A stretch of 64,000 nt of DNA from Labilithrix sp. (GCA_019637175.1 JAHBWD010000014.1:1-64000), one strand, 5' to 3'; counted from the stretch's first letter, positions 13,052 through 27,758 are shown. Made by a program: numbers and translations. Notes: generated from the sequence alone by a model not told the origin.

Positions 13052-14338
13052 TCACGTCGACGGCAGGAGAGGGCGCATGCGCTCGCACAGCGGCAAATAG
13101 ATCGCCTCGTGGATCCCGGCGAGCTCGATCGCGTGCGCGCGGAGGCTCGCGCGATCGGCGTCCGACCATCGCGTCTTCGGCGTCTTCGTCGCGGCGCGCG
13201 CGTGGGCGGCGCCGAGGAGCGCGCCGAGGTAGGTCGCGAGCGAGGGCAGATCGGCGCCGCGGAGCCGCCGGAGATTGAGCTTGTCTTCCTGCGGCGAGAG
13301 CTTGCGCACGAAGAGCGGGAGCTTCGAGAACTTTCCTGCGTTCGCGAGCGACGTGCACCCCATCATGCGCGGAGGCGCCGCGACGCACGCGCGGAAGGCG
13401 GTCGCGACGCGCTCCGCGTCGTTGCCGCTCCATGGCGCCGCCTCGCCGAGGAGAACGCTCGCCGACGGCGCGCCTTGCTCCTTCATGTCGAAGATCCACG
13501 AGCCCTCCTCGCCCTTGCCCTTGACGAGGACCGCGATGCGCAGCCCGCCGAGGCTCCCCGTGCCCGCGATGCGCAGCGCCGCGTCGACGATCTCGAACGA
13601 GCCCTTGCTCGGGCGATCCTCCTCCGGGAGCGTCGCGACGTAGCTCTGGAACGCGGCGGGGACGGCGCTCGCCACCTCCTTGGGCAGATCGGCGTAACGC
13701 GGCCCGCGCGCGAAGCGTCGCTTGCCGGCCACCATGAGCGTGCGCGCGTCGAGGAGCGCCGCCTTCGATCGCGCGCGCACCTGCTCGGTGAGCGCGACGA
13801 CCGGCGGCGGCGGCTCGAGCGGCGGCGCGCCGTCGAAGGCGCTCCGGATCCATGCGTCGATCAGCAGATCGCACAGCGTGAGCGCGACGACGCCGCTCGC
13901 GCCGAGCTCTCGCCCTCCGAGCAACAGGCTCGTCGAGAGGCGGAGCAGATCGAGCCGCCACGGCCCGATGATCGCGTCGTCGAAGTCGTTGAGATCGAAG
14001 CGCACGCTCCGCTTCTTCTGGTTGCCGCTCTCGCCGCGTGAGGAAGCGGCCTCGGAGGCGCCGAGCGGGTCGGGCCGATACGCCCCGAAGTTCTCGAGGT
14101 GCATGTCGCCGACGATCCATCCTTCTCCGGGCGGCCCGTCGGCGAGATCGGGGCGCGCGACGAGGATCTCGTAGAAGAGCGGCGCGGCGCCTCGGAGGTA
14201 CGCGAGCGGCGACGCGCTCATGCGTTGGAGCTTGCGCACGAACAGATCGGGGAACCGCGAGGTGCGCGCGCGATCGTGGACGAGCTGCCGCTCGGCGAGG
14301 GCCGCGGGCTCCAGGGGAAGCACGACGGGTTTCGCCAC
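13052..14338 (-). CDS. DUF2252 family protein (kinase-fold-like)
   Basis: Conserved protein of unknown function. The diagnostic DUF2252 motifs are present: residues ~80-130 carry GWIVGDMHLENFGAYR and, further on, RFDLNDFDDAIIGPWRLDLLRL. The His/Asn and paired Asp residues resemble aminoglycoside-phosphotransferase/kinase-like catalytic loops. The chosen GTG at 14338 has AAGGAAAGG immediately upstream, whereas the frame's earlier start overlaps the divergent lpxK gene. The product has 428 residues, normal for the family. It is divergent from lpxK with only 46 bp between starts, so the two probably share a regulatory region. Confidence 0.85.
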   Translation of the reverse strand: MAKPVVLPLEPAALAERQLVHDRARTSRFPDLFVRKLQRMSASPLAYLRGAAPLFYEILVARPDLADGPPGEGWIVGDMHLENFGAYRPDPLGASEAASSRGESGNQKKRSVRFDLNDFDDAIIGPWRLDLLRLSTSLLLGGRELGASGVVALTLCDLLIDAWIRSAFDGAPPLEPPPPVVALTEQVRARSKAALLDARTLMVAGKRRFARGPRYADLPKEVASAVPAAFQSYVATLPEEDRPSKGSFEIVDAALRIAGTGSLGGLRIAVLVKGKGEEGSWIFDMKEQGAPSASVLLGEAAPWSGNDAERVATAFRACVAAPPRMMGCTSLANAGKFSKLPLFVRKLSPQEDKLNLRRLRGADLPSLATYLGALLGAAHARAATKTPKTRWSDADRASLRAHAIELAGIHEAIYLPLCERMRPLLPST

Positions 14339-14384
14339 GCCTTTCCTTGTACGCTCCTCGGCGCGGGTTGTGTACCGTCGCGTC

Positions 14385-15302
14385 GTGATCGGGGCATTCG
14401 AAGAGGTGCTCGGGCTCGTCACGCGAGCCGCGCGCACGATCGCGCGGCCGCTCGCGCTCCCGCGCGGCGTGCCCGTCGTCACCGTCGGGGGCTCGACGTT
14501 CGGCGGTTCGGGCAAGACGCGGCTCGCGCTCGCGTGCGCCTCGATGCTCGGAGAGAGAGGCGCGCGCGTCGTGCTCGTCGGTCACGCGTATCGCGCGCGC
14601 CCCGGTCACGCGCGGATCGTCGCGCCGGGCGACGCGCTCGCGATCGTCGGCGACGAAGCGCTCGCGTGCGCCCGCGTCCTCGCGGCGCGCGGCCTCGCGC
14701 GCGTGCGCGTCGTCGTCGCCGAGCGCAGGCAATCGGCCGTCGACTTCGCCGCGGCGATGGATGATCGCCCAGACGTCATCGTGATCGACGGTCCGGCGCA
14801 GCTCGCGCCGGAGCGCGCGGCGCTCTCGCTCCTCGCGCTCGACGCGCACGCGCCGTGGAGCCGAGGATGGGATCTTCGCGCGCCGCGGGCCGCGCTCGTC
14901 GCCGCGACCGATCATCGCGTGTTCGTCGACGCGGCGCCCGAGAGGGAGGGGCGCGTCGCCCTCGCCTCCGGCCGAACGGTCGTTCTCGACGAGCTCGCGG
15001 GGCTGCGCGTCGGCCTCTTCACGGCGCTCGCGCGGCCCGATCGCCTCGTTCGAGGGCTCGCGCGCCGGGGCGTCGCTCCGCGCGTGACCGTCCACGCGGC
15101 CGATCACGGCCCGCTTCGCGTCGGCGAGAGGCGACGCCTCGCCGGTGCCGCCGGCGACGTCGATCTCTGGCTGGCGACGCCGAAGTGCGCGACACACCTC
15201 GACTCGGCAGAGCTCGTCGCGCCGCTCGCCATCCTCGAAGACGCCCTGCGCGTTCCTCCCTCCGTGGCCCGCGCGCTCGCCGCGCTCTCGAGAAAAGAGT
15301 AG
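14385..15302 (+). CDS. lpxK: Tetraacyldisaccharide 4'-kinase (LpxK-like)
   Basis: Adds the 4'-phosphate to the lipid A precursor at the inner membrane, a late step of lipopolysaccharide synthesis. The P-loop VTVGGSTFGGSGKTRLALA and the following RGARVVLVGHAYR correspond to the LpxK core. The Walker B-like strand DVIVIDGPAQL takes the place of the usual DDGFQ segment; the exact DDGFQ is not seen, so activity is likely but not certain. GTG 14385 is used (305 residues, slightly short for LpxK); a GTG five codons upstream is equally possible. No other lipid A genes are adjacent. It is divergent from the DUF2252 gene. Confidence 0.82.
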   Translation: MIGAFEEVLGLVTRAARTIARPLALPRGVPVVTVGGSTFGGSGKTRLALACASMLGERGARVVLVGHAYRARPGHARIVAPGDALAIVGDEALACARVLAARGLARVRVVVAERRQSAVDFAAAMDDRPDVIVIDGPAQLAPERAALSLLALDAHAPWSRGWDLRAPRAALVAATDHRVFVDAAPEREGRVALASGRTVVLDELAGLRVGLFTALARPDRLVRGLARRGVAPRVTVHAADHGPLRVGERRRLAGAAGDVDLWLATPKCATHLDSAELVAPLAILEDALRVPPSVARALAALSRKE

Positions 15303-15431: not shown

Positions 15432-16343
15432 GTGAGTGAAGTCGACGAGAAGACCCGCGTAACGACGATCGTCCAGAAGCCGGCGGGCGAGCCGGACGGC
15501 GACGACAAGCCGCGCAACAACGACTGCATCGTCGTCATCTACACCAAGGAGCCGACGCTCCTCGGGAAGCGGTTCGTCCTCGACTTCACGCCGGTCAGGC
15601 TGGGCCGCGGCGCGGAGAACCACATCGTCCTCGAGGGCGACAGCGTGTCGCGCCGTCACGCGCACCTCGAGCAGCGCGGCGCCGTCTGGTGGGCGGTCGA
15701 CGACGGCTCGACCAACGGCACGTACGTCAACGACGAGCAGATCAGCCGCGAGTTCGGCCTCGCCAACGGCGATCGCATCAAGGTCGGTCCGACGATCTTC
15801 AAGTACCTCTCCGGCGCCGACGTCGAGTCGCAGTACCACGAAGAAATCTATCGGATGACGATCATCGACGGCCTCACGCAGGCGCACGTGAAGCGCTACC
15901 TGCTCGAGGCGCTCGAGAAGGAGATCATCCGCGCGCGGCGACACGCGCGCGATCTCTCCTTCATCATGTTCGACATCGATCACTTCAAGAAGATCAACGA
16001 CCACCACGGCCACCTCGCGGGCGACTTCGTGCTCAAGGAGCTCGCGCGGATCGTCCAGGGGCGCATCCGGCGCGACGAGGTCTTCGCGCGCTACGGCGGC
16101 GAGGAGTTCGCCATCATCCTCCCCGAGACGAGCATGGAAGGCGCGCGCGCGCTCGCCGACGGCCTGCGCGAGAAGATCGAGACGAGCCGCTTCGTCTTCC
16201 AAGGCGACAGCATCCCGGTGACGATCTCGATCGGCGTCTCGATGCTCGCCGACGCCGACAAGACGAGCATGGATCTCATCCGCGCCGCCGACGCGAAGCT
16301 CTACGAAGCCAAGCGCGGCGGCCGGAACCGCGTCGTCGCCTGA
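15432..16343 (+). CDS. FHA-domain diguanylate cyclase (GGDEF)
   Basis: Predicted to make cyclic di-GMP from two GTP under control of a phosphothreonine-binding FHA domain. FHA spans residues ~35-115 (RLGRGAENHIVL, SVSRRHAHL, DDGSTNGTYVN). GGDEF spans ~135-300, with DIDHFKKINDHHGH for metal and substrate binding and GGEEF at 222-226. The inhibitory I-site, normally RxxD five residues before GGDEF, reads RRDE here, so product inhibition may be weak. FHA suggests coupling to a Ser/Thr kinase; one lies at 58039 in this window. The GTG start at 15432 follows a 129-bp gap after lpxK. The aminotransferase gene begins 11 bp after the stop. Confidence 0.93.
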   Translation: MSEVDEKTRVTTIVQKPAGEPDGDDKPRNNDCIVVIYTKEPTLLGKRFVLDFTPVRLGRGAENHIVLEGDSVSRRHAHLEQRGAVWWAVDDGSTNGTYVNDEQISREFGLANGDRIKVGPTIFKYLSGADVESQYHEEIYRMTIIDGLTQAHVKRYLLEALEKEIIRARRHARDLSFIMFDIDHFKKINDHHGHLAGDFVLKELARIVQGRIRRDEVFARYGGEEFAIILPETSMEGARALADGLREKIETSRFVFQGDSIPVTISIGVSMLADADKTSMDLIRAADAKLYEAKRGGRNRVVA

Positions 16344-16354
16344 CGGAGGCTCGC

Positions 16355-17695
16355 GTGAACGAGCTCCCGGAGGTGAAGGTCGCGCCGCCCGGGCCGCGCT
16401 CGCGCGAGCTCGCGTCGCGGCTCGCCTCCGTCGAGTCGCCGGCCTTCGAAGCGCGGCGAGACGCGCGCGCGCAGGCGTCGCGCGCCGATCAAGGACCGAT
16501 CGTGTACGCGCGCGGGCGGGGATCGAACGTCGTCGACGTCGACGACAACCGCTACGTCGATCTCACGGCGGGCTTCGGCGCGCTGATCCTGGGGCACGGA
16601 CCGAACGTCGCGCTCGAAGCCGCGCGCGCCGCCGAGGACGAGCTCGTCCTCGCGCTCGGCGACGTCTACGCCTCCGAGCTCAAGGTGCGCGCGTGCGAAG
16701 CGCTGGCCGCGCTGTTCCCGGAGCCAGGCGCACGCGTGATGCTGGGTCTCTCGGGCGCCGACGCGATCACGTGCGCGCTGAAGACCGCCGCGCTCGCGAC
16801 GGGCAAGGTGGCCGCCGTCGCGTTCGAGGGCGCGTATCACGGGCTCTCGTACGGTCCGCTCGCCGTGTGCGGTCTCTCGCCCAGCTTTCGCGAGCCGTTC
16901 GCGGCGCAGCTCGGCGTGCCGGTCACCTTCGCGCCGTACCCTTCGCGCGACGCAGACGACGCAGACGACGCGGACGTCGAGCTCGACGAGAGCTTGTCGG
17001 CCGTGCGCGCGGCGCTCGCGCGCGGCGACGCCGGCGCGGTCGTCGTCGAGCCGATGCTCGGCCGCGGCGGATGCGTGATCCCGCCTTCAACGTTCCTCCC
17101 CGCGCTGCGATCGCTCGCCGACGAGGCGGGCGCGCTGCTCGTGGTCGACGAGATCTGGACGGGGATGGGCCGCACCGGCGCGCTCGTCGCGTGCCTCGAC
17201 GCGGGCGTCGTTCCCGACGTCATCTGTCTCGGCAAGGGCCTCGGCGGAGGCGTGCCCATCTCGGCGTGCATCGGCCGCGCGGGCGCGATGGAGGCCTGGG
17301 CGAAGCACGGCGGCTCGACGATCCACACGGGGACGCACTTCGGCGCGCCTCCCGCGTGCGCGGCGGCGCTCGCGACGCTCGACGCCGTCGGCTCGTCGCT
17401 CGCCGATCGCGCCGCCGAGATCGGCGCGCGCTGGCTCGAGGAGATCGCCGAAGCGTGCGCGCCCTTCGAACGCGCGCGCGTGCGCGGCAAGGGGCTCATG
17501 ATCGGCGTTCAGCTCGGCGACGCCGGCGAGGCGCTCGCGGTCGCGCGCGCGCTCCTCGGCCGCGGCTACATCGTCCTCACCGGCGGTACGCGCGGCGACA
17601 CGCTCACGCTCACGCCTCCGCTCACAGTCGCCCCCGAGCTGCTCAGCGCCTTCGTGCCCGAGCTCACGGCCGCGATCGAGCGTGGTACGGCGTGA
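16355..17695 (+). CDS. Class III aminotransferase (PLP-dependent)
   Basis: Pyridoxal-phosphate aminotransferase of the acetylornithine/4-aminobutyrate/glutamate-1-semialdehyde group. Seen are the substrate/PLP region LSGADAITCALKTAALATG, the PLP-contacting aspartate in LLVVDEIWTGMGRTG, and the Schiff-base Lys294 in ICLGKGLGGGVPISA. The start is GTG 16355 with GGAGG five bases upstream, giving 446 residues. A repeated Asp-Ala-Asp stretch around residues 199-207 is encoded by three 9-bp tandem copies. The substrate is unknown; a GSA-aminomutase role is unlikely without other haem genes nearby. It probably shares a transcript with the FHA-GGDEF gene 11 bp upstream. Confidence 0.9.
   Translation: MNELPEVKVAPPGPRSRELASRLASVESPAFEARRDARAQASRADQGPIVYARGRGSNVVDVDDNRYVDLTAGFGALILGHGPNVALEAARAAEDELVLALGDVYASELKVRACEALAALFPEPGARVMLGLSGADAITCALKTAALATGKVAAVAFEGAYHGLSYGPLAVCGLSPSFREPFAAQLGVPVTFAPYPSRDADDADDADVELDESLSAVRAALARGDAGAVVVEPMLGRGGCVIPPSTFLPALRSLADEAGALLVVDEIWTGMGRTGALVACLDAGVVPDVICLGKGLGGGVPISACIGRAGAMEAWAKHGGSTIHTGTHFGAPPACAAALATLDAVGSSLADRAAEIGARWLEEIAEACAPFERARVRGKGLMIGVQLGDAGEALAVARALLGRGYIVLTGGTRGDTLTLTPPLTVAPELLSAFVPELTAAIERGTA
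16949..16975 (+). repeat. 9-bp tandem repeat inside the aminotransferase gene
   Basis: Three in-frame copies of GACGCAGAC (the third has one change) encode Asp-Ala-Asp three times. The copy number could vary by slippage without breaking the frame. It lies in a probable surface loop. Confidence 0.7.
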
Positions 17696-18008: not shown

Positions 18009-18800
18009 TCACGGCCGTGATCGGATCGTGATCGCGCCGATCTCCGGCCGGCAGAAGAAGCGCACCGGAAAGATCGACGTGCCCACGCCGCGCGAGACGA
18101 ACATGCGCGCGCGCCCCGACGTGTACCAGCCTTCGACGAAGCGATCGGATCCGGGCGGCGTCCAGATCGGGCCGACGAAGGGGAGGCGCACCTGCCCGCC
18201 GTGGGTGTGGCCGCCGAACGCGAGGTCGACGCGATCGGCGAACGTCGCGAACGACCCCGGCGAATGGAGGAGGAGGACGCGGAGCGCGCCGTCGGGCGCG
18301 CCCTTCATCGCGCGGTCGACGTCGGCGTCGCCGGACATCGGATCGTCGACGCCGCCGATCCAGACGTCGGGTCGAACGAGGCGGCCTTCGTTGACGAGGA
18401 AGGTCGCGCCCACCGAGGCGTAGAAGCTCGCTTCGTCGCCCGGCGGGCTCCAGTTCTCCCAGTTGCCGCGCACGACGAGCACGCCGAGCGGCGCGCGCAT
18501 GCGCGTGAAGAGCTCGCGCGCGGGCTCGAGCGATCCGCCGTCGACGACGTCGCCGGTGACGACGATGACGTCGGGCCGGAGCTCGTCGATCGCCTCGACG
18601 ACGCGGCGCTCGCGCCGGCCGAAGCCCGACGTGTGCAGATCCGTCAGGTGCATCACCGTGAGCGGCGCGGCGACGCTCGCGGCGATCTCGTGCTTCGCGA
18701 TCGCGACCGCGTAAGGCTCGACGGCGAGCGCGTCGATCGCCGCGATCACGATGACCGCGAGGCCGATCCGCGAGGCCCAGCGGCGCCGGTTCGAAACCAC
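18009..18800 (-). CDS. Membrane-anchored metallophosphoesterase (YkuE/YaeI-like)
   Basis: Dimetal phosphoesterase with one N-terminal membrane helix (residues ~10-30). The metal motifs in order are LTDLHTS, VTGDVVDGG, VVRGNWENW, LLLHSPGSF and FGGHTHGGQ. The third motif is normally GNHD/E; here Trp replaces the His that usually aids the leaving group, while the metal-binding Asn is kept. The best-known relatives hydrolyse phosphodiester or pyrophosphate bonds in lipids such as UDP-diacylglucosamine. A lipid A role is tempting because lpxK is close, but this is inference. The product has 263 residues and is divergent from the lipase gene across 114 bp. Confidence 0.88.
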   Translation of the reverse strand: MVSNRRRWASRIGLAVIVIAAIDALAVEPYAVAIAKHEIAASVAAPLTVMHLTDLHTSGFGRRERRVVEAIDELRPDVIVVTGDVVDGGSLEPARELFTRMRAPLGVLVVRGNWENWSPPGDEASFYASVGATFLVNEGRLVRPDVWIGGVDDPMSGDADVDRAMKGAPDGALRVLLLHSPGSFATFADRVDLAFGGHTHGGQVRLPFVGPIWTPPGSDRFVEGWYTSGRARMFVSRGVGTSIFPVRFFCRPEIGAITIRSRP

Positions 18801-18914: not shown

Positions 18915-19940
18915 ATGAAGAAGCTCGCTGCCGTGGTCGCCCTCGCCGTCACGGCCACCTTGGGCTGCGCCGCCGAGGAGGTCCCTGAAGAAGAGGCCGT
19001 CGCCGGCGAAGACGCGTTCACCGCCCGGCCGTCGCGTCACGCGATCGTCCTCGCGCACGGCTTCAACGGATCGACGACCAACACGTGGAGCTTCTACAAG
19101 GTCGCCGATCGGCTGACCGCCGACGGTCACGTCGTGCACGCCGCGGAGGTCTCGCCCTACAAGTCCGTTCCGGTTCGCGCCGGCGAGCTCGCCGGTCACG
19201 TCGACGCCGCGATCGCGAAGTGCCGCGCGAGGCCCGGATGCGACGCGAGCAAGGTGCACATCGTCGCGCACTCGATGGGCGGGCTCGACTCGCGCTACTT
19301 GATCTCGAAGCTCGGCTACGGCAATCGCGTCGCGTCGCTCACGACGATCTCGTCGCCTCACCGCGGCACGCGCATCGCCGACGTGTTGCTCAAGGTCGTG
19401 ACCGACGACTTCAACGGCGCGATCAGCGCCGCCGCCTCTGCCTGGGCGCGCACGTTCACCGAGCGCGAGCTCGCAGGCGACAGCGATCTGCGCGGCGCGC
19501 TCCTCTCGATCAGCGAGAAGTACACGAAGGAGACGTTCAACGAAGAGATCCGCGACGACGCGCGCGTGACGTACCTCTCGTACGCGGGGGTCAGCAACTT
19601 CGCCTCGATCCCGAACTACAAGGATCGCGAGGCGTGCGACGGCCTGTTCAACCCGCGCCTCGGCGTGCGCGACCTCATGAACGCCCAGCTCGTGCCTTCG
19701 GCGCCGTTCGTCGCGCACGGCGCCCAGCTCCGCCCGAACGACGGCCTCGTGACCGTCGAGAGCGCGAAGTGGGGCAAGTTCATGGGCTGCATTCCGGCCG
19801 ATCACCTCGACGAGGTCGGCCAGCCCCGCCACGATCGCCCGAACTTCCTCACGGGCTTCGACCACCTCGATTTCTACCGCAAGCTCGCGTCGAAGCTCGA
19901 CGACGAGGTCGCCGAGCGCGCTGCCGCTGGCAACCGCTGA
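18915..19940 (+). CDS. Lipoprotein alpha/beta hydrolase (triacylglycerol lipase-like)
   Basis: Predicted secreted lipase or esterase. The start chosen is ATG 18915 because it opens a proper signal peptide (MKKLAAVVALAVTATLGC) with a lipobox-like Cys; an ATG 30 bases upstream would add residues before it. The hydrolase core begins at ~45 with IVLAHGFNGSTTNTW (oxyanion region). The nucleophile Ser is in VHIVAHSMGGLDSRYL, a candidate catalytic Asp lies in the RPNDGLVTVES stretch, and the His in TGFDHLDF. The length and the GLVTVES/DHLD arrangement match bacterial lipases of the LipA type. The stop is 22 bp before the LuxE-like gene, and a 7-bp hairpin spans that stop. Confidence 0.86.
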   Translation: MKKLAAVVALAVTATLGCAAEEVPEEEAVAGEDAFTARPSRHAIVLAHGFNGSTTNTWSFYKVADRLTADGHVVHAAEVSPYKSVPVRAGELAGHVDAAIAKCRARPGCDASKVHIVAHSMGGLDSRYLISKLGYGNRVASLTTISSPHRGTRIADVLLKVVTDDFNGAISAAASAWARTFTERELAGDSDLRGALLSISEKYTKETFNEEIRDDARVTYLSYAGVSNFASIPNYKDREACDGLFNPRLGVRDLMNAQLVPSAPFVAHGAQLRPNDGLVTVESAKWGKFMGCIPADHLDEVGQPRHDRPNFLTGFDHLDFYRKLASKLDDEVAERAAAGNR

Positions 19941-19947
19941 CCAGCGG
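19924..19947 (+). other. Hairpin spanning the lipase stop codon
   Basis: A perfect 7-bp stem (CCGCTGG / CCAGCGG) with a 10-nt loop contains the lipase TGA. It lies 15 bases before the GTG of the luxE-like gene. There is no U-run, so it is not a classical terminator; it could trim or stabilise mRNA ends and lower lipase/luxE co-expression. Confidence 0.4.
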
Positions 19948-19962
19948 AGCTAGACGAGAAGC

Positions 19963-21081
19963 GTGGATCGAAGCAATGAGCTTCACGCGCGCGCGCGCGC
20001 GTTCGTGAGCGCGTTCGAAGCGGGTGCGCCTTCGCCCGAGCCGTTCGACGCGCTCGCGTGCGACATCGCGCGGTTCCAGGGCGCGCACATCGAAGGCTTC
20101 GCGCGCCTCTCTGCCGCGCGCGGCGTCGATCTCGAGCGCGTCACGAGCGCGTCGCAGATCCCCGCCGTTCCCACGGACGCGTTCAAGGTGACGCGCGTCG
20201 CCGCGTTCGAAGAGGGCCGCGCCGAGATCACGTTCAAGACGAGCGGCACGACCGCGGGCGCGCGCGGCGCGCACGAGATGCGCGACGTGTCGACCTACGA
20301 CGCCGCGGCGATCGCCTTCGGGCGCCGCTGGCTCGCGCGCGATCTCGATCGATCGGTGCCCGTCGTCGTCCTCGGGCCGTCGCCGTCCGAGGCGCCCGAC
20401 TCGTCGCTCGTCCACATGTGCGCGTCGTTCGCCGAGGCGTTCGGCGCCGACGCGGCGCCGAGCTACCTCGTGACGCTCGACGGGATCATCGATCTCGCCA
20501 CGTTCGACGAGCGCGTCGCCGTCGCGCTCGCGAAGGGCGAGCCGATGCTCGTGCTCGGCACGTCGTTCGCGTTCGTTCACCTCGTCGACGCGCTGGGCAA
20601 GGCGTCGTTCGCGCTGCCCCCCGGCAGCCGCGTCATGCAGACCGGGGGCTACAAGGGCCGGAGCCGCGAGGTGCCGCCCGACGTGCTCCGCTCCGATCTT
20701 TCCCGCGCCTTCGGCCTCGACCAACGACGCATCGTCGCCGAGTACGGGATGACGGAGCTCTCGAGCCAGTTCTACGAGCGCACGCTCTTCGACGAAGATG
20801 CCTCCTTCGGCTGGTACGCCGAGCCGCCGTGGGCGCGCGTCGTGCCCGTCGATCCGGTCACGCTCGAGCCCGTCGCCGACGGCGAGATGGGCGTCGCGCG
20901 GATCGTCGATCTCATGAACGTCGACAGCGCGGTCGTCGTCCTCACGCAAGATCAGGTGCGCCGCAGCACGAACGCGAGCGAGGGCTTCGAGCTCATCGGC
21001 CGCGCGCCGGGCGCGCCGCCGCGCGGCTGCTCCATCGCGATGGACGAGATCCTCGGGCGCCGCGCTACCATCACGGGATGA
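19963..21081 (+). CDS. LuxE-like acyl-protein synthetase
   Basis: A member of the LuxE family within the ANL adenylating superfamily. LuxE activates a fatty acid with ATP and holds it as an acyl-enzyme for the LuxC reductase. The ANL phosphate loop appears as TFKTSGTTAGARG (residues ~88-100). A motif YGMTELSSQFYE (~262-273) corresponds to the acyl/AMP-binding YGxTE. The C-terminal ATP-hinge and lid are short, as in LuxE. The GTG start at 19963 gives 372 residues, typical for LuxE. The stop overlaps the start of the LuxC-like gene (ATGA), so the two are translationally coupled. No luciferase genes luxA or luxB are in the window. Confidence 0.88.
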   Translation: MDRSNELHARARAFVSAFEAGAPSPEPFDALACDIARFQGAHIEGFARLSAARGVDLERVTSASQIPAVPTDAFKVTRVAAFEEGRAEITFKTSGTTAGARGAHEMRDVSTYDAAAIAFGRRWLARDLDRSVPVVVLGPSPSEAPDSSLVHMCASFAEAFGADAAPSYLVTLDGIIDLATFDERVAVALAKGEPMLVLGTSFAFVHLVDALGKASFALPPGSRVMQTGGYKGRSREVPPDVLRSDLSRAFGLDQRRIVAEYGMTELSSQFYERTLFDEDASFGWYAEPPWARVVPVDPVTLEPVADGEMGVARIVDLMNVDSAVVVLTQDQVRRSTNASEGFELIGRAPGAPPRGCSIAMDEILGRRATITG

Positions 21082-22124
21082 CACGGAACCTCGCCGAGCG
21101 CATCGCCGACGTCCGGCGCCTCCAGGAGGCGGCCCGCGCGATCGTCGAGCGCCGGGTGACGCTCGCGCCTGCCATCGTCGAGTCTACGGGCCTCTCGACC
21201 GAAGGCGTCGAGCTCGGCCTCACGCGTCACGTCGAGGTCGAGGCGACCGACCGAGAGCTCACCCAGCTCGTGACCTGGGCCGGCGACGCCGAGGCGGTGC
21301 TCGTGATCCTCTCGTCGAACGTCTTCGTCGGCGCCTTGCGCGCGCTCGCGCTCGCGCGCGCGGCCTCGAACGACGTCGTGCTGCGCCCGTCGCGCCGCGA
21401 TCCGACGTTCGCGCGCGCGCTCGTCGAGGCGGCGAACGAGGTCGGCGATACGCGCGTGCGCATCGTCGACGAGCTCGACGTCGCGTCGATCGCGCGCGGC
21501 GAGATTCACGTCTACGGCCGCGACGAGACGATCGCCGACGTTCGCAAGAAGGCGAAGGTGCGCGTGCGCGGCCACGGCAGCGGGATGGGCGTCGCCTGGA
21601 TCAGCGCCGGCGCGGATCTCGCCAAGGCCGCGCGCGGCCTCGCCGAAGACATCGTCGTCTTCGACCAGCTCGGGTGCCTCAGCCCGCGCGTCGCGTTCGT
21701 CGAGGGCTCGCTCGAGCGCGCCTCCGAGCTCGGCGACGTGCTGAGCGCGGAGCTCGACCGCCTCGACGCGAGCGTCCCGCGCGGCATGGTGCCCGCCGAA
21801 GAGCGCGCCGCCGCCGGCCGCTACGTCGCGACGATGACCTACGCGTCTCGCGCGCTCGTGGGCAGCCGCCACGCGATCGGCGTCGCGCCGCCGGGCGCGC
21901 CCGTCATCGTGCCGCCGCCGTATCGCAACATCCACGTCGCCGCGTGCGCCTCCGCGGGCGAAGCGAAGACGCTCCTCGCGCCGCTCGCGAAGGCGATCGT
22001 CACGGTCGGCAGCGACGACCTCGACGCCGCGGCGAAGATCGCGCCCGCGTGGGCGCGCCTCTCGCTCCTCGGGCACATGCAGCGCCCGCCGCTCGACGGG
22101 CCGGTCGATCTCCGCTCCGAGTAG
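21078..22124 (+). CDS. LuxC-like acyl-CoA/acyl-protein reductase
   Basis: A member of the LuxC family of the aldehyde-dehydrogenase superfamily. It reduces an activated acyl group to the aldehyde with NADPH. The start ATG 21078 overlaps the preceding stop. The presumed catalytic Cys200 lies in VVFDQLGCLSPRVAFVEG, matching the DQxxCxSP pattern of LuxC. VLVILSSNVFVGALRAL near residue 75 is the nucleotide-binding-side motif, and residues ~165-180 give the Gly-rich RVRGHGSGMGVAW. At 348 residues it is shorter than marine LuxC (~480), lacking N-terminal sequence. With the LuxE-like partner it should form a fatty-acid reductase giving long-chain aldehydes, perhaps for wax, alcohol or ether lipids. 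Confidence 0.85.
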   Translation: MTRNLAERIADVRRLQEAARAIVERRVTLAPAIVESTGLSTEGVELGLTRHVEVEATDRELTQLVTWAGDAEAVLVILSSNVFVGALRALALARAASNDVVLRPSRRDPTFARALVEAANEVGDTRVRIVDELDVASIARGEIHVYGRDETIADVRKKAKVRVRGHGSGMGVAWISAGADLAKAARGLAEDIVVFDQLGCLSPRVAFVEGSLERASELGDVLSAELDRLDASVPRGMVPAEERAAAGRYVATMTYASRALVGSRHAIGVAPPGAPVIVPPPYRNIHVAACASAGEAKTLLAPLAKAIVTVGSDDLDAAAKIAPAWARLSLLGHMQRPPLDGPVDLRSE

Positions 22125-22126
22125 CG

Positions 22127-23941
22127 TCACTTCACGGGCGGCGGCTTCGCGTCGTTGACCGGGCGGCTCCCCATTCCGCCGGCGTAGCCGTAGCTCGCGT
22201 CGCGACCCATGCCCCACACCGTGACCGAGAACGGACCGTCGCTCCGGGCTTCGTGACGACCGTGACCGCACGTGCCCTTCGCGAACGCTTGCGGGGTGAA
22301 GCCGCGCGTCAGGTGCACCCACGCGTACTCGTACTCGCCGCTCGCGCCGAGCGGACGGAAGCTCGTGATCTCGCCGGCGCACTCGAGCTCGACCGGCGCG
22401 AAGCCCGCGGCCGTCTTCCTCCGGACGACGGTGAGCGTCGTCTCTGGATAGGTGTAATCTGCAAAGAAAACGTAGCGGTCGAGGAACTGATCGGAGGGAA
22501 CGACGTTCACGAAGTCCGGATCGCCCACCGTTCGTCCGCCGCCGGCGAGGCCGCCGTTGTACTGCGAGCCCGTCATGTAGACCGACGCGTGGAACGGGTG
22601 GCGGCTGTCTTGGCTCCTCACGACGACGAGCTCGTCGGTGAAGAAGCTCACCACCTGGCCGGCGGCGAGCGTCTCCGGCGCGTTGCGCGGTCGCGACGGC
22701 TCGTAGGTCAGGACCGTGCCGTCGACAGCGCCGACGAAGCTCCAGGGCACCGTCTCCCTCGCATCGGCGCCGGTGAGGCTGTCGATGCGCGGCTCGTAGG
22801 GCACGAGCGCGTACTCGCGGCCCCACTGCGAGAACGGCGCGATCTGCTGCTGGGTCACGTCGCAGAACTCGACGCGGCCCGGCAGGAACGCGCACCGCGC
22901 GCCGCCGAAGAGGCCGACGGGCTTGTTCGAGACGAACGGGCTGCCGCTCGCGTCTTCACGCTGCGTGATCTGGAGCACCTGTCCGCGCGAGAGCGTCCAC
23001 GTCTGCGTCTCGCCGCGCGGCGCCGCCGCGACGTCGGGACCGGGCAGGATGCCGACGGTCGGCTTCATCTCGACGGTCGTGTCGTCGTCGCTCGCGACGA
23101 TCTGGAGCGTGCGGGGCTCGGTGCCCGGCGTGCCGCGATCGGTGATGTTGCTCGTGCTGACCGCGATGTAGCTCGTGTCCCACGACGAGACCGGCAGGAG
23201 GAGCGTCGCGGTCGGGATGTAGCCGAGCGCGCCGCCGTAGGGGTAGATCGAGTACGCCGCGACCGGCGCGTCGGCCGTGATCTCGAACGCGCGCGTTTTG
23301 GTGGTGCCGTGCGAGAGCGGGTCGACGCGCACGGCCGGCGTGACCTCCTTCGGACACGGCGCGAACGAGGGGCCCGTCGCGCTCTCCGCTTGGGCGAGGA
23401 AGACGAGCGCGACCTGTCCCGGCGGGAGCGGTCCCGCGAGGGGCGTGTACACCGTCGCTTCGCCGGCGTTCTGCGCGGTGAAGGTCGACCTCGAGATGTC
23501 GAGCGGCGCGCCGCCGAATCCGGCCGAGAGGGTGACGGGGCGATCCCACGTGTTCGCGATCATCGCCGCGAAGCATGATCCGCGACCTTCGTTCGGCTCG
23601 TCGGGCGGCAGCGTCCAGAAGGCGCAGCCCGTCGAGCCCTTCGACAGGCGCGCGCTCTCGCAAGCGTCGACGCAGCGCCCGTCGCCGCAGCCCTGATCGG
23701 CGCCGCACGTCTCGACGACCTCTTCGCCGCCGTCGCAGACCGCGAGCACCTTCTTGAGATCGCGCGAGCAGCGGCGCCCGCTGCACGCCGAGCCGGCATC
23801 CGCGTCGGGGCTGCCGAGCTGCGGACCGGCGGCGGGATCGAAGCCGTCACGCGTCCCGCAAGCGGCGAACGCGCTCGAGAGCGCCGCGATGCCGAGCATC
23901 CACGTGAGGGCACGAGCTGAGGTGGAAGCGTTGGAGAACAT
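22127..23941 (-). CDS. Lipoprotein with IgGFc-binding-protein-like domain
   Basis: Last gene of a five-gene lipoprotein operon. The signal peptide ends at FAAC (Cys27). A short Cys-rich segment with CDGGEEVVETCGADQGCGDGRCVD follows. A large beta-rich domain then resembles the IgGFc-binding N-terminal domain common in Myxococcota: PVAAYSIYPYGGALGYIPTATLLLP, SWDTSYIAVS, SNKPVGLFGGARC, and DQFLDRYVFFADYTYPETTLTVVRR. The product has 604 residues. The name comes from a mammalian mucin-like protein; binding of immunoglobulin is not implied. It is probably surface exposed, perhaps adhesive. It starts 13 bp after the RCC1 gene's stop and ends 2 bp from the convergent LuxC-like gene. Confidence 0.8.
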   Translation of the reverse strand: MFSNASTSARALTWMLGIAALSSAFAACGTRDGFDPAAGPQLGSPDADAGSACSGRRCSRDLKKVLAVCDGGEEVVETCGADQGCGDGRCVDACESARLSKGSTGCAFWTLPPDEPNEGRGSCFAAMIANTWDRPVTLSAGFGGAPLDISRSTFTAQNAGEATVYTPLAGPLPPGQVALVFLAQAESATGPSFAPCPKEVTPAVRVDPLSHGTTKTRAFEITADAPVAAYSIYPYGGALGYIPTATLLLPVSSWDTSYIAVSTSNITDRGTPGTEPRTLQIVASDDDTTVEMKPTVGILPGPDVAAAPRGETQTWTLSRGQVLQITQREDASGSPFVSNKPVGLFGGARCAFLPGRVEFCDVTQQQIAPFSQWGREYALVPYEPRIDSLTGADARETVPWSFVGAVDGTVLTYEPSRPRNAPETLAAGQVVSFFTDELVVVRSQDSRHPFHASVYMTGSQYNGGLAGGGRTVGDPDFVNVVPSDQFLDRYVFFADYTYPETTLTVVRRKTAAGFAPVELECAGEITSFRPLGASGEYEYAWVHLTRGFTPQAFAKGTCGHGRHEARSDGPFSVTVWGMGRDASYGYAGGMGSRPVNDAKPPPVK

Positions 23942-23954
23942 GGGACCCTCGCGT

Positions 23955-25346
23955 TCAGAACGCGACCTTCACCGGGGTTGGATGAGCGTCGCCGTCGCGC
24001 GCCGGCAGCCCGAGCTCGCCGCGCGCGTTGCCGCCCCAGCACGCGACCGTGCCGTCGTCGACCAGCGCGCACACGGCGTGACGGCTCGTCACCACCTGGA
24101 CGGCGCGCTCGGTGAACGCGGTGGCCGCCACGAAGAAGGTCGAGAACGCGCCGGTCGCGCCTCTGCCGAGGTTGCCGCGGTCGTCCGTCCCGCAGCACTG
24201 GACCGTGCCGTCGGTGAGGCGCGCGCACGTCGTGTCGCCGGCGACCGAGATCTGCTGCGGGTACGCGACGCTCGTGACGGGCGCGTAGGTCGGCGTCTTG
24301 GCGACGGGATCGGGTAGACCCGTGCACAGTGCACCTTTCGCGTTCCTGCCCCAGCAGAGCGCGGCGCCGTTCACCACCGCGCACGCGTGCGCCGACGCGG
24401 GTGGGGGAGGCTCCCACGGCGGCGCGTCGTCGGGGAGGACGCCGGGCACCGACGACGAGACCGCGAAGCTCGACACGCCGGTGAGGATCGTCGCGGGCGT
24501 GGTGTCCGGGCTGATGGAGGAGACGCGGCCGGCGACGACGCCTTCTTCGCCGGAGATCGCGCCGACGCTCAGCAGCGTGCCCGCGCCGGTCGACACGAAG
24601 CCGGTGCTCGTGCCCGTGCGCATGCTCCGCGCGGGCGCGCCCGTCATGGCGTGGCCGGGCTTCACGACGTCCGAGGGATCGCGCGCGAGCTGACCGTGCT
24701 GGTTGTCGCCCCAGCAGTGCACGGCGCCGCCGTCGGCGAGGACCGCGCAGGCGCTGCCGTGCCCGAGATCGATCCGGGACGCCGGTCCAGGGAGCGAGAC
24801 CCTGACGGGCGTCCGGTGCGGAGAGTCGTCGAAGGGCGCGCCGGCCTCGAGGCCGAGCTGCCCGCGGGCGTTGCTGCCCCAGCAGTACACGCTGCCGCTC
24901 TCGTCGCGCGCGCACGTCGACGCGCCGGCCGCGCTGATCTGCGCGACCGCGTCGAGGCCGACGACGGGTCGCCGGCCGCCGTCGCCCGCGTCGGCGCCGA
25001 CGCCGAGCGCGCCCTTCGCGTCGTCGCCCCAGCAGCGCACTGTGCCGTCGCGAAGCCGCGCGCAGACGTGATCGTCGCCGGCGGCGAGCTCGGTGACGCA
25101 CGGTCCGTCGGCCGTGGCGCACACGACGGCGGCGCTCGCGGCGTCGAACGGCGCGCGGGCGTCGACGGCGTCGACGGCGACGTCGGCCGCGGCCTCGGGG
25201 AGCGAAGCCGCCGGAGCGCCGTCCGGATCCTCGAACGGCGCGCGCTCCTCGGGATCGATGCACGCCGCGAGCACGGCGGTCGCGAGAGCGGACATCGCCG
25301 AGAGCAGGAGGAGCCCGCGGGCCTTGTGTCGCGTGTGGAGGATCAT
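23955..25346 (-). CDS. RCC1-repeat lipoprotein
   Basis: A predicted seven-bladed beta-propeller on the cell surface. The signal peptide has a canonical lipobox LAAC. Repeats of the form [70 protein letters not shown] and [23 protein letters not shown] recur about every 50 residues from ~70 to the end. Each carries a CARL..G.V.CWG core, with two cysteines per blade that probably pair. This bacterial secreted RCC1 form is abundant in myxobacteria. It is not expected to act on Ran-like GTPases. ATG 25346 is 7 bp from the stop of the upstream gene, within the same operon. Confidence 0.88.
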
Positions 25347-25353
25347 CGCGTTC

Positions 25354-26562
25354 TCACTTCTTCGCCTTGGTCGGGTCGAAGTGGAGCGCGATGCCGTCGC
25401 CCACGACCCAGAGGTCGGTCGCGCTGCTCCCCCAGATCGCGTGGAGCGGCGCCGTGATGGGGAACTTGCCGGTCATCAGCGCCGCTTGGGTCCACGTGCT
25501 CCCGTTCCACCGGCGCAGGCGGCCGTAGTCGCCGGCCGCCCACGCGTCGGTCGAGCTCGTTCCCCAGATCGCCTCGAGCCGATGGTCGTCGAGGTGGCGC
25601 GCGACGTGCGACCACGCGAACGTCGCGCCGTCGGTCGACGTGCCGCGCCACAAGCCGGGGCTGAAGCCCAGGCTCTTGCCCGCGATCCAAACGTCGTTGC
25701 CGCTCGCGCCGCCGGTCGTGAACTCGCCGAGCACACCGCTGTCGACGCCGTCGCGCGGATCGAACGCGAAGCTCGTGAGCTTCGCGAACGCAGGAGCGCC
25801 GGCAGGACGGCGATAGACCGCCGCGCTGTGGCCGAAGGGGTTCGTGTTCGAACCGCCGATCCACACGCCGCTCGCGGTGGTGCCCCAGACCTTCGTGAAC
25901 GCGTACGGGCTCGTGCCGACGGGATCGAGCGTCCACGTCGCGCCGGCGTCGGTCGTCGCGCCGGTGAAGCGCAAGACGCGCGAGACGGCCGTCTCTTCGT
26001 CCTGCATCTTGCCGCCGACGGCCCAGACGTCGTTCGGACCCGTGCCCCAGATCGAAGTGATGCCGATCGTGGCGTCGCCGGGTGTGGCGTTCGGCTGGAA
26101 CGCGAGCGCCGCGGAGGTCGCGCCTCGCCCGCGGTACAGGCCTTCGTCGCCGCCGACCCAGACGTCGAGCGGGCCGCTGCCCCAGATCGCGTGGAGCGGT
26201 CCGCTCAAGGTCGCGTGCACGGTCCACGCGCCGGCGCCGGCGCTCAATCGAAGCACGGCGCCTTCCTCGGAGACCGCCCAGATCACGCCCGCGCCGTCGG
26301 ACCACACGCCGCGCAACGAATGATCGGGCGGCAGCGTCGTCGAGCACCAGCCGTGGTCGGAGCACGTTCGAGGGGGCCCGGCTTCGGCGCCGGCGTCGCT
26401 GTCCGCGTCGATCGCGGGGCCGCCGTCGTTCGGAGGGATCACGCCACCCTCGTCGTCGATCGCGGGATCGGGCGCGCGGCCGTCGTCGGCGCACGCCGCG
26501 AACGCGAAGACCGCGGCGCCGGCGATGACGAACGTCACGGGCGCTCTCCAACGGGCGTTCAT
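25354..26562 (-). CDS. Lipoprotein with WGSSxxDVW beta-propeller repeats (copy 2)
   Basis: A signal peptide with a FAAC lipobox is followed by an acidic linker and a propeller of about seven blades. Each blade carries an [14 protein letters not shown]-type motif ([60 protein letters not shown]). A paired HGWCSTTLP cysteine segment lies near residue 70. The product has 402 residues. ATG 26562 overlaps the stop of the related upstream gene (ATGA), so the two paralogues are translated together. The function is unknown; such secreted propellers are typical of Polyangia and may bind surface glycans or other lipoproteins. Confidence 0.82.
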
Positions 26563-27758
26563 CGATCGCCTCCGGTCTTGGGGCCGGTGAAGCGCAAGAC
26601 GACGCCGTCGCCGACCACCCAGACGTCGTTCGGACCGCTGCCCCACACGCCGTGGAGGTCGGGCTTGGGGCCGAGCGCGAACGCCGCGGTCGCGGTCGCC
26701 CAAGTCTTGCCGTCGTAGTGCAGGATCGTGCCCTCGTCGCCGACCGCCCACACGTCGCTCGGGCCGCTGCCCCACACGCCGTGGAGATCGGCGCTCGTCG
26801 GAGACGGTGTGATCGCCCAGCGCGTCGCGCCGGCCGCCCAGTGACGGATCGTGCCGAGCGATCCGACCGCCCAAACGTCGTTCGCCGAGCTTCCCCAGAT
26901 CGACGCGAGGACGTGCGCCGACTGGCTGTCGACCGAGGTCCACGCGCCCGGCGCGCCGCCGTCGCCGGGCGTGCGATGCAGGAGCAGGCCGCGCATCCAC
27001 GCGATCTCGGGGCTGTTGTCGGCCGACATCCAGACGTCGCTCGCCGAGCTTCCCCAGATCGCGCGGACGGTCGCGCGCGTCCACGCGCCGTCGTCGCCTT
27101 CGAACGCCTTCCACGCCGGCGCGCCGCCGTCGCCGGCGGGTTGGAGCCGCAGGTAGTTGCCCGAGCGGCTCGCGCCCGTGTCGAGATCGAGCTCGTCGAA
27201 GACCGCGCCTCCGACGATGACGTCGGTCGCGCTCGAGCCCCACGCGGCGTGCGCGCGACCGCCGTAAGCGTCGGGCGACGCCGCGGGCACGCTCGTGAAC
27301 GAGATCGCGCCGCCTGCGGCGCCCTTGCTGTGGAGCAGGACGCTCGCCGAGCTCACGACCCAGACGTCGGTCGGCCCGCTGCCCCAGACCGCGTGGAGCG
27401 TCTCGACGATGCCGGTCGCGGCGAGGCGCCAGGTGGCGCCGTCGTAGTGAACGACGGTGCCGCCGGAGCCCACGGCCCAGACGTCGGTCGCGCTCGAGCC
27501 CCAGATGGACGTGAGCGCGTAGCGAGGATCGACCCCGACCGAGACGGGGCAGAAGTCGGCCGACGCGCACGTGGGCCCCTCGAGCGCCGCGTCGTCGGGC
27601 GGCGCGTCGCCGGCGTCGGAGGTGATCACGGCGGACGCGTCGTCGGCGCCCGGAGGTTGATCCTCCGCGCCCGCGCAGCTCGCGACGAGCGACAGCGCCG
27701 GCAGCGCGACGAAAGGCAGCACGATCAGCAGCGCGCGCGTGTGCGAAGCGAGCTTCAT
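26559..27758 (-). CDS. Lipoprotein with WGSSxxDVW beta-propeller repeats (copy 1)
   Basis: A paralogue of the next gene in the operon, from which it probably arose by tandem duplication. The start ATG 27758 opens the signal peptide (lipobox VASC) and overlaps the TGA of the Cys-rich lipoprotein gene. Blades show [69 protein letters not shown] and two GVWGSGP(S/N)DVW copies. Each blade has the pattern WGS..(D/N)VWAVG followed by a strand ending in a tryptophan. The product has 399 residues. Ligand and partner are unknown; surface exposure is inferred from the lipobox and the operon. Confidence 0.82.
   Translation of the reverse strand: MKLASHTRALLIVLPFVALPALSLVASCAGAEDQPPGADDASAVITSDAGDAPPDDAALEGPTCASADFCPVSVGVDPRYALTSIWGSSATDVWAVGSGGTVVHYDGATWRLAATGIVETLHAVWGSGPTDVWVVSSASVLLHSKGAAGGAISFTSVPAASPDAYGGRAHAAWGSSATDVIVGGAVFDELDLDTGASRSGNYLRLQPAGDGGAPAWKAFEGDDGAWTRATVRAIWGSSASDVWMSADNSPEIAWMRGLLLHRTPGDGGAPGAWTSVDSQSAHVLASIWGSSANDVWAVGSLGTIRHWAAGATRWAITPSPTSADLHGVWGSGPSDVWAVGDEGTILHYDGKTWATATAAFALGPKPDLHGVWGSGPNDVWVVGDGVVLRFTGPKTGGDR

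Follow-up and report, generated by a model that had tools for sequence, protein, structure and literature searches.

What might a LuxE-like and a LuxC-like gene accomplish in a myxobacterium? The question is raised by a 64,000-nucleotide stretch of DNA from Labilithrix sp. (GCA_019637175.1 JAHBWD010000014.1:1-64000), hereafter called the window, in which a lipoprotein lipase gene is followed after 22 bp by a LuxE-like gene and, through an ATGA overlap, by a LuxC-like gene. Gene calls confirmed this layout, which a sequence-only reading had described and taken for a lipase-fed fatty acid reductase. No luxAB genes were found among the cassette-adjoining genes scanned with Pfam, the rest of the genome not having been searched for luciferase. 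Here, we report that the conserved unit is the trio of an aminotransferase gene, luxE, and luxC, and we propose, as judged from sequence, that the window probably encodes a three-enzyme route from a carboxylic acid to a primary amine. The members of the trio are the following:

16355 to 17695, plus strand: class III pyridoxal 5'-phosphate (PLP)-dependent aminotransferase of 446 amino acids (aa), with PF00202 at 265 bits and catalytic residue Lys294.
19963 to 21081, plus strand: LuxE-like acyl-protein synthetase of 372 aa, with a GTG start and PF04443 at 61.1 bits (cutoff, 24.9).
21078 to 22124, plus strand: LuxC-like acyl reductase of 348 aa, with an ATG start and PF05893 at 67.7 bits (cutoff, 21).

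Linkage across the phylum Myxococcota defines the unit. Clustering of the genes called in 41 loci, which comprised the window and 40 loci from the same phylum, revealed that only LuxE, LuxC, and a class III aminotransferase are common to nearly all of them. A second set of loci came from named genomes (Labilithrix, Polyangium, Sorangium, Minicystis, Sandaracinus, and Myxococcales metagenome-assembled genomes). Profile searches placed the aminotransferase gene upstream of luxE, on the same strand, in 108 of 113 assessable loci (36/40 in the phylum set and 72/73 in the named-genome set) and luxC downstream of luxE in 98 of 106 (35/39 and 63/67, respectively). Overlaps of 4 bp (ATGA) are common at both junctions. 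The luxE-luxC pair of the sequence-only reading is thus conserved, while its lipase is not, and the aminotransferase partner had been overlooked. Moreover, luxE and luxC each have orthologues phylum-wide, and so their assignments are not due to chance. Neighborhood clustering recovered no other conserved enzyme that might hint at a substrate; SUF iron-sulfur genes, metallophosphoesterases, and other neighbors are lineage specific. In family f20 (L169, L170, and L172), the aminotransferase gene and luxE are kept together and luxC is nonadjacent, with LuxC encoded elsewhere in most of these genomes. At two further loci (L108:5070-6182 and L117:4167-5279), the match to the luxE profile is broken into two segments, which might reflect an insertion or a frameshift.

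Co-occurrence was evaluated in 284 genomes from this single phylum, using profile thresholds of E up to 1e-110 for the aminotransferase subfamily and up to 1e-20 for LuxC. LuxE is present in 230 genomes, the aminotransferase subfamily in 221, and LuxC in 226, usually as one orthologue per genome. About three-quarters of the sample (213/284) has all three genes, 47 genomes have none, and 24 have a partial set, several of these being incomplete assemblies or weak matches. The aminotransferase and luxE occur together in 219 of the 232 genomes that have either gene (Fisher p = 2.5e-43, with kinship ignored). More telling than this p value are families f22, f30, and f39, where the aminotransferase gene is unlinked to luxE yet present in the genome. 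All three genes are absent among the genomes listed for families f8, f9, f12 to f15, f17, f18, and f32, and families f10 and f11 gave weak or single partial matches only.

Catalytic residues are conserved in each enzyme, as evidenced by alignments of 107 to 129 sequences scored with gaps left out. The LuxE-like protein consists of an adenylation domain and the acyl-carrying Cys356 (codon at 21028-21030), which aligns with the cysteine at residue 364 in the LuxE chain of 7xc6, the Photobacterium LuxC-LuxE complex, this chain being the sole PDB sequence relative of the protein at E < 0.001 (1.2e-14); this cysteine is kept in 125/125 relatives. Cys200 of the LuxC-like protein (codon at 21675-21677) aligns, albeit weakly, with the cysteine of DQQACFS in 7xc6 chain A and is kept in 106/106 relatives. 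Both motifs pointed out in the sequence-only reading, KTSGTTAGARG in LuxE and DQLGCLSP with Cys200 in LuxC, are present, and its proposal of a LuxE-LuxC carboxylate reductase pair is supported by the conserved cysteines and the conserved pairing; the two sequence outcomes that it had named as refuting, a lost active-site cysteine in close relatives and an unconserved pairing, did not occur. In the aminotransferase, Lys294 is kept in 126/126 relatives and Asp265 in 125/125. What the sequences show directly is the identity of the genes, their catalytic residues, the operon layout, the linkage across the phylum, and the co-occurrence.

Predicted structures agree with these assignments. The LuxC-like model (predicted local distance difference test score [pLDDT] of 92.4) has an aldehyde dehydrogenase fold, and its best PDB match is 7xc6 LuxC (E value, 1.9e-15; TMq, 0.72); the short length of 348 aa thus still allows a well-formed fold that is modeled with confidence. 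The LuxE-like model has a pLDDT of 89.9. Chain E of 7xc6 is not among the top structural matches of this model, which is no evidence against relatedness because the sequence search recovers 7xc6 LuxE. Both proteins score below the NCBIfam equivalog cutoffs for luminous LuxE (NF052244; 47.4 versus 550 bits) and luminous LuxC (NF052251; 24.7 versus 750 bits).

The aminotransferase is set apart as well. By its profile scores, it is a subfamily of its own within class III, since the members listed score about 500 to 660 bits and the best PDB relative scores 316. Its gate positions, given in E. coli GabT numbering, were checked in alignments. The Glu211 equivalent is Arg237 in 124/125 sequences, which departs from the gamma-aminobutyric acid (GABA)/ornithine-type gate, and the Arg398 equivalent is Thr, Gln, Val, Ser, Ala, or Gly but never Arg. 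The second best PDB match of the aminotransferase, with a nearly equal score, is a class III amino acid racemase.

The direction of the pathway, its three reactions, and channeling between them are what we infer from this gene set. LuxE would use ATP to convert a carboxylic acid to an acyl-AMP and would then move the acyl group onto its own C-terminal Cys356. LuxC would accept the acyl thioester at Cys200, where a nicotinamide cofactor would reduce the acyl group to an aldehyde. The aldehyde may be retained in or close to an enzyme complex, and the class III PLP enzyme would transaminate it to a primary amine. It is the aminotransferase, as phylum-wide partner, that points to an amine as the end product, and the aldehydes, alcohols, waxes, or ether lipids envisaged earlier are not borne out. 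By analogy, the proposed chemistry is precedented by TamA and TamH, which together convert a C12 acid to a C12 amine through acyl-AMP, carrier thioester, and aldehyde intermediates, with a class III transaminase acting last (PMC9594044).

Several points weigh against this acid-to-amine route. The whole pathway is predicted from sequence, and the co-occurrence statistic is inflated by shared ancestry. The aminotransferase lacks the Glu211/Arg398 gate, and so the amino donor, or even the type of reaction, may differ. Class III PLP enzymes include racemases and lyases. Finally, a fold resemblance to small-acid ligases, described below, does not fix the substrate, because the luminous LuxE is itself a member of that superfamily.

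Which acid might be reduced? We somewhat favor a small acid, perhaps aromatic or heterocyclic, over a long-chain fatty acid. Outside the phylum, where sampling was through plasmids only, the nearest LuxE proteins found are 30 to 36% identical and are plasmid borne, in Azospirillum, Pantoea, Priestia, Lactiplantibacillus, and Niallia. Those with annotated surroundings belong to operons that encode LuxE, LuxC, and a short-chain dehydrogenase/reductase (SDR), accompanied by an NMT1-type ATP-binding cassette importer in Azospirillum and Priestia or by a xanthine-type nucleobase permease in Lactiplantibacillus. In a single LuxE tree, rooted on a very distant LuxE, the plasmid proteins branch from within the Myxococcota sequences. 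The plasmid LuxE-LuxC-SDR operons resemble an acid-to-alcohol pathway, with a putative small substrate, that has spread horizontally. Also, the LuxE model aligned best to the small-acid adenylating enzymes PaaK, 2-hydroxyisobutyryl-CoA ligase, ClxA, NatL2, AjiA1, and EhpF. The operon context and the fold resemblance lean away from long-chain fatty acids, although neither hint is decisive. The SDR-operon loci are L155, L156, L157, L158, L159, and L179. Thiamin-pyrimidine carboxylate, pterin-6-carboxylate, and sulfoacetate were considered as substrates from the importers in these operons, and none was singled out. No aminotransferase homologues were detected on plasmids at E 1e-40.

The best-surviving alternative keeps the same three steps and changes the substrate, such that a long-chain fatty acid would be converted to a long-chain alkylamine for a lipid. 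The characterized LuxE-LuxC pair does use fatty acids, and TamA/TamH yields C7 to C14 amines (PMC9594044). However, LuxE-LuxC-SDR relatives, several with small-solute importers, are nested in the same LuxE clade, and there is no lipid synthesis gene among the constant neighbors; we therefore regard a fatty amine as a serious but rather unlikely product.

Another possibility is that LuxE and LuxC make an aldehyde or alcohol, with the PLP enzyme serving a different branch of the same metabolism as a racemase, mutase, or lyase. This idea draws on the altered gate, with Arg237 and the lost Arg398 equivalent, and on the near-equal match to the racemase. Against it, the genes are directly coupled in translation and almost always co-occur, which suggests that the enzymes act one after the other, and an aldehyde paired with a class III PLP enzyme has a clear transaminase precedent in TamA/TamH. 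We consider such a split of functions unlikely.

It is also improbable, in our judgment, that the acid-to-amine route runs in reverse as catabolism, with an amine deaminated to an aldehyde that LuxC and LuxE would oxidize and conserve as an acyl thioester or adenylate. Class III transaminases are common in amine catabolism, and an aldehyde dehydrogenase fold, such as that of the LuxC model, is capable of oxidation. Yet oxidation needs no dedicated ATP-dependent ligase with an invariant acyl-carrying cysteine, there is no amine transporter among the constant neighbors, and a gene set usually present once per genome and retained across the phylum has the look of biosynthesis.

The remaining alternative concerns the lipase, one of three further genes in or next to the cassette of the window:

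15432 to 16343, plus strand: FHA-GGDEF gene (diguanylate cyclase-like), with PF00990 at 148 bits and PF00498 at 65 bits.
18009 to 18800, minus strand: metallophosphoesterase inside the cassette, with PF00149 at 51.6 bits.
18915 to 19940, plus strand: lipoprotein lipase of 341 aa, with an ATG start, an LGC lipobox, an AHSMGG nucleophile motif, and an alpha/beta hydrolase match at 39.3 bits (Pfam).

Here, the lipase gene and the oppositely oriented metallophosphoesterase gene occupy a stretch of 2,267 bp that interrupts the cassette between the aminotransferase gene and luxE. A metallophosphoesterase gene occurs near luxE in the window alone among 81 loci scanned. A lipase homologue lies between the aminotransferase gene and luxE, or just 5' of luxE, in 6/121 loci (the window, L075, L077, L079, L091, and L114), a count that rules out the lipase as a conserved partner. 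These six loci are scattered in one clade of the LuxE tree among relatives without the lipase. Because it has a lipobox-type signal, the lipase should be exported, away from cytosolic LuxE; a secreted lipoprotein, unlike LuxD, could not pass an acid directly to LuxE, and so we dropped the lipase from the mechanism. Its earlier casting as a LuxD analogue fails on the low count, the patchy distribution, and the signal, and the lipase is no part of the pathway but a passenger, there by chance or at the level of a clade. A lipase-fed reductase making long-chain aldehydes for alcohol, wax, or ether lipids is very unlikely: the LuxE and LuxC identities and active sites hold, and the lipase gene does lie just 5' of luxE in the window with homologues in the same interval of five related loci, but 115/121 loci have no lipase at that place, its lipoprotein signal predicts export, the constant partner is the aminotransferase, and both Lux scores fall far under the luminous equivalog cutoffs (47 versus 550 and 25 versus 750 bits).

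Other neighbors touch on regulation or merely share the locus. The FHA-GGDEF gene ends 11 bp 5' of the aminotransferase gene, and a homologue lies directly upstream of the aminotransferase gene, often overlapping it, across the window's own family and is absent in other families, which suggests a cyclic di-GMP or FHA regulatory link in that family only. A DUF2252 protein (212 bits) is encoded at 13052-14482, and homologues of it occur close to the cassette in several loci from the window's family. On the far side, a gene for a large protein with an IgGFc_binding domain (22127-23941; 342 bits) is convergent with luxC, 2 bp apart, and adjoins a gene for an RCC1-repeat protein (23955-25346); at 25354-27758 are tandem paralogues, two neighboring same-strand genes that group by sequence and have no Pfam match. 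PADLOC returned no defense system match.

Comparison with known systems places the cassette more precisely. It shares with the luminous LuxC-LuxE fatty acid reductase (7xc6) the same two families and the predicted order of adenylation, a cysteine-bound acyl group, and reduction, with both catalytic cysteines aligned and the LuxC fold as best match. It differs in that its LuxE is about 22% identical, its LuxC has 348 rather than 477 aa, and an aminotransferase is found instead of a conserved LuxD-type hydrolase. The predicted sequence from acid through acyl-AMP, carrier thioester, and aldehyde to amine, with a class III transaminase last, resembles that of TamA/TamH (PMC9594044). TamA, however, has an acyl carrier protein (ACP) domain and TamH has a fused thioester reductase domain of another family, whereas the cassette would use the LuxE cysteine and a LuxC with an aldehyde dehydrogenase fold; moreover, TamA/TamH belongs to a secondary metabolite cluster, in contrast to the phylum-wide core genes described here. 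Neighborhood clustering of the loci recovered no ACP gene family common to them.

EhpF and EhpG have reportedly been proposed to reduce phenazine carboxylate. EhpF is, like LuxE, a small adenylating enzyme, and its structure (3l2k) matches the LuxE model with a Z score of 21.0. The EhpF gene adjoins EhpG, an aldehyde dehydrogenase family gene, and the D-alanylgriseoluteic acid (phenazine) cluster that contains them also has an SDR gene (PMC11278526); this is an antibiotic cluster, and the pair has no aminotransferase partner. The plasmid operons of Azospirillum, Pantoea, Priestia, and Lactiplantibacillus contain the nearest LuxE relatives found outside the phylum and conserve the acyl-carrying cysteine, but an SDR (aldehyde to alcohol) replaces the aminotransferase, some have an importer, and LuxC is full length (488 aa in Azospirillum lipoferum). 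Finally, Aeromonas flagellin glycosylation islands carry nonluminous luxE-luxC with ACP, SDR, and AMP-ligase genes (PMC7874193). A Deinococcus plasmid (L160:3052-8440) has nearly the same set, namely, ACP, SDR, AMP-ligase, LuxE, LuxC, and acetyltransferase genes beside a sugar transferase gene. Identity to the LuxE from Deinococcus is just 23%. The Aeromonas class III aminotransferase was rejected as a luxE/luxC partner, as it sits in a different island group.

The enzyme families and acid-to-amine cascades are already known. We found no description of the cassette in the open-access papers searched (LuxE with LuxC and an aminotransferase, LuxE with LuxC and salvage, and LuxE in Myxococcota), nor any account in them of the gene combination, its conservation across the phylum, or the aminotransferase subfamily. 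Tentatively, we posit a core pathway of most Myxococcota in which LuxE-LuxC, a pair familiar from bioluminescence, and a dedicated aminotransferase of its own subfamily may turn a specific small carboxylic acid into a primary amine required for a phylum-typical cofactor, lipid, or cell envelope component, with the SDR versions elsewhere perhaps descending from it by horizontal transfer.

A usually single-copy, translationally coupled trio in about three-quarters of the genomes sampled from a phylum marks a gap in knowledge of myxobacterial metabolism. If the proposed route is true, acyl transfer would take place on a LuxE cysteine where TamA/TamH uses an ACP, and the trio would be a compact acid-to-amine biocatalyst. 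More broadly, many luxE and luxC annotations may concern neither fatty acids nor light.

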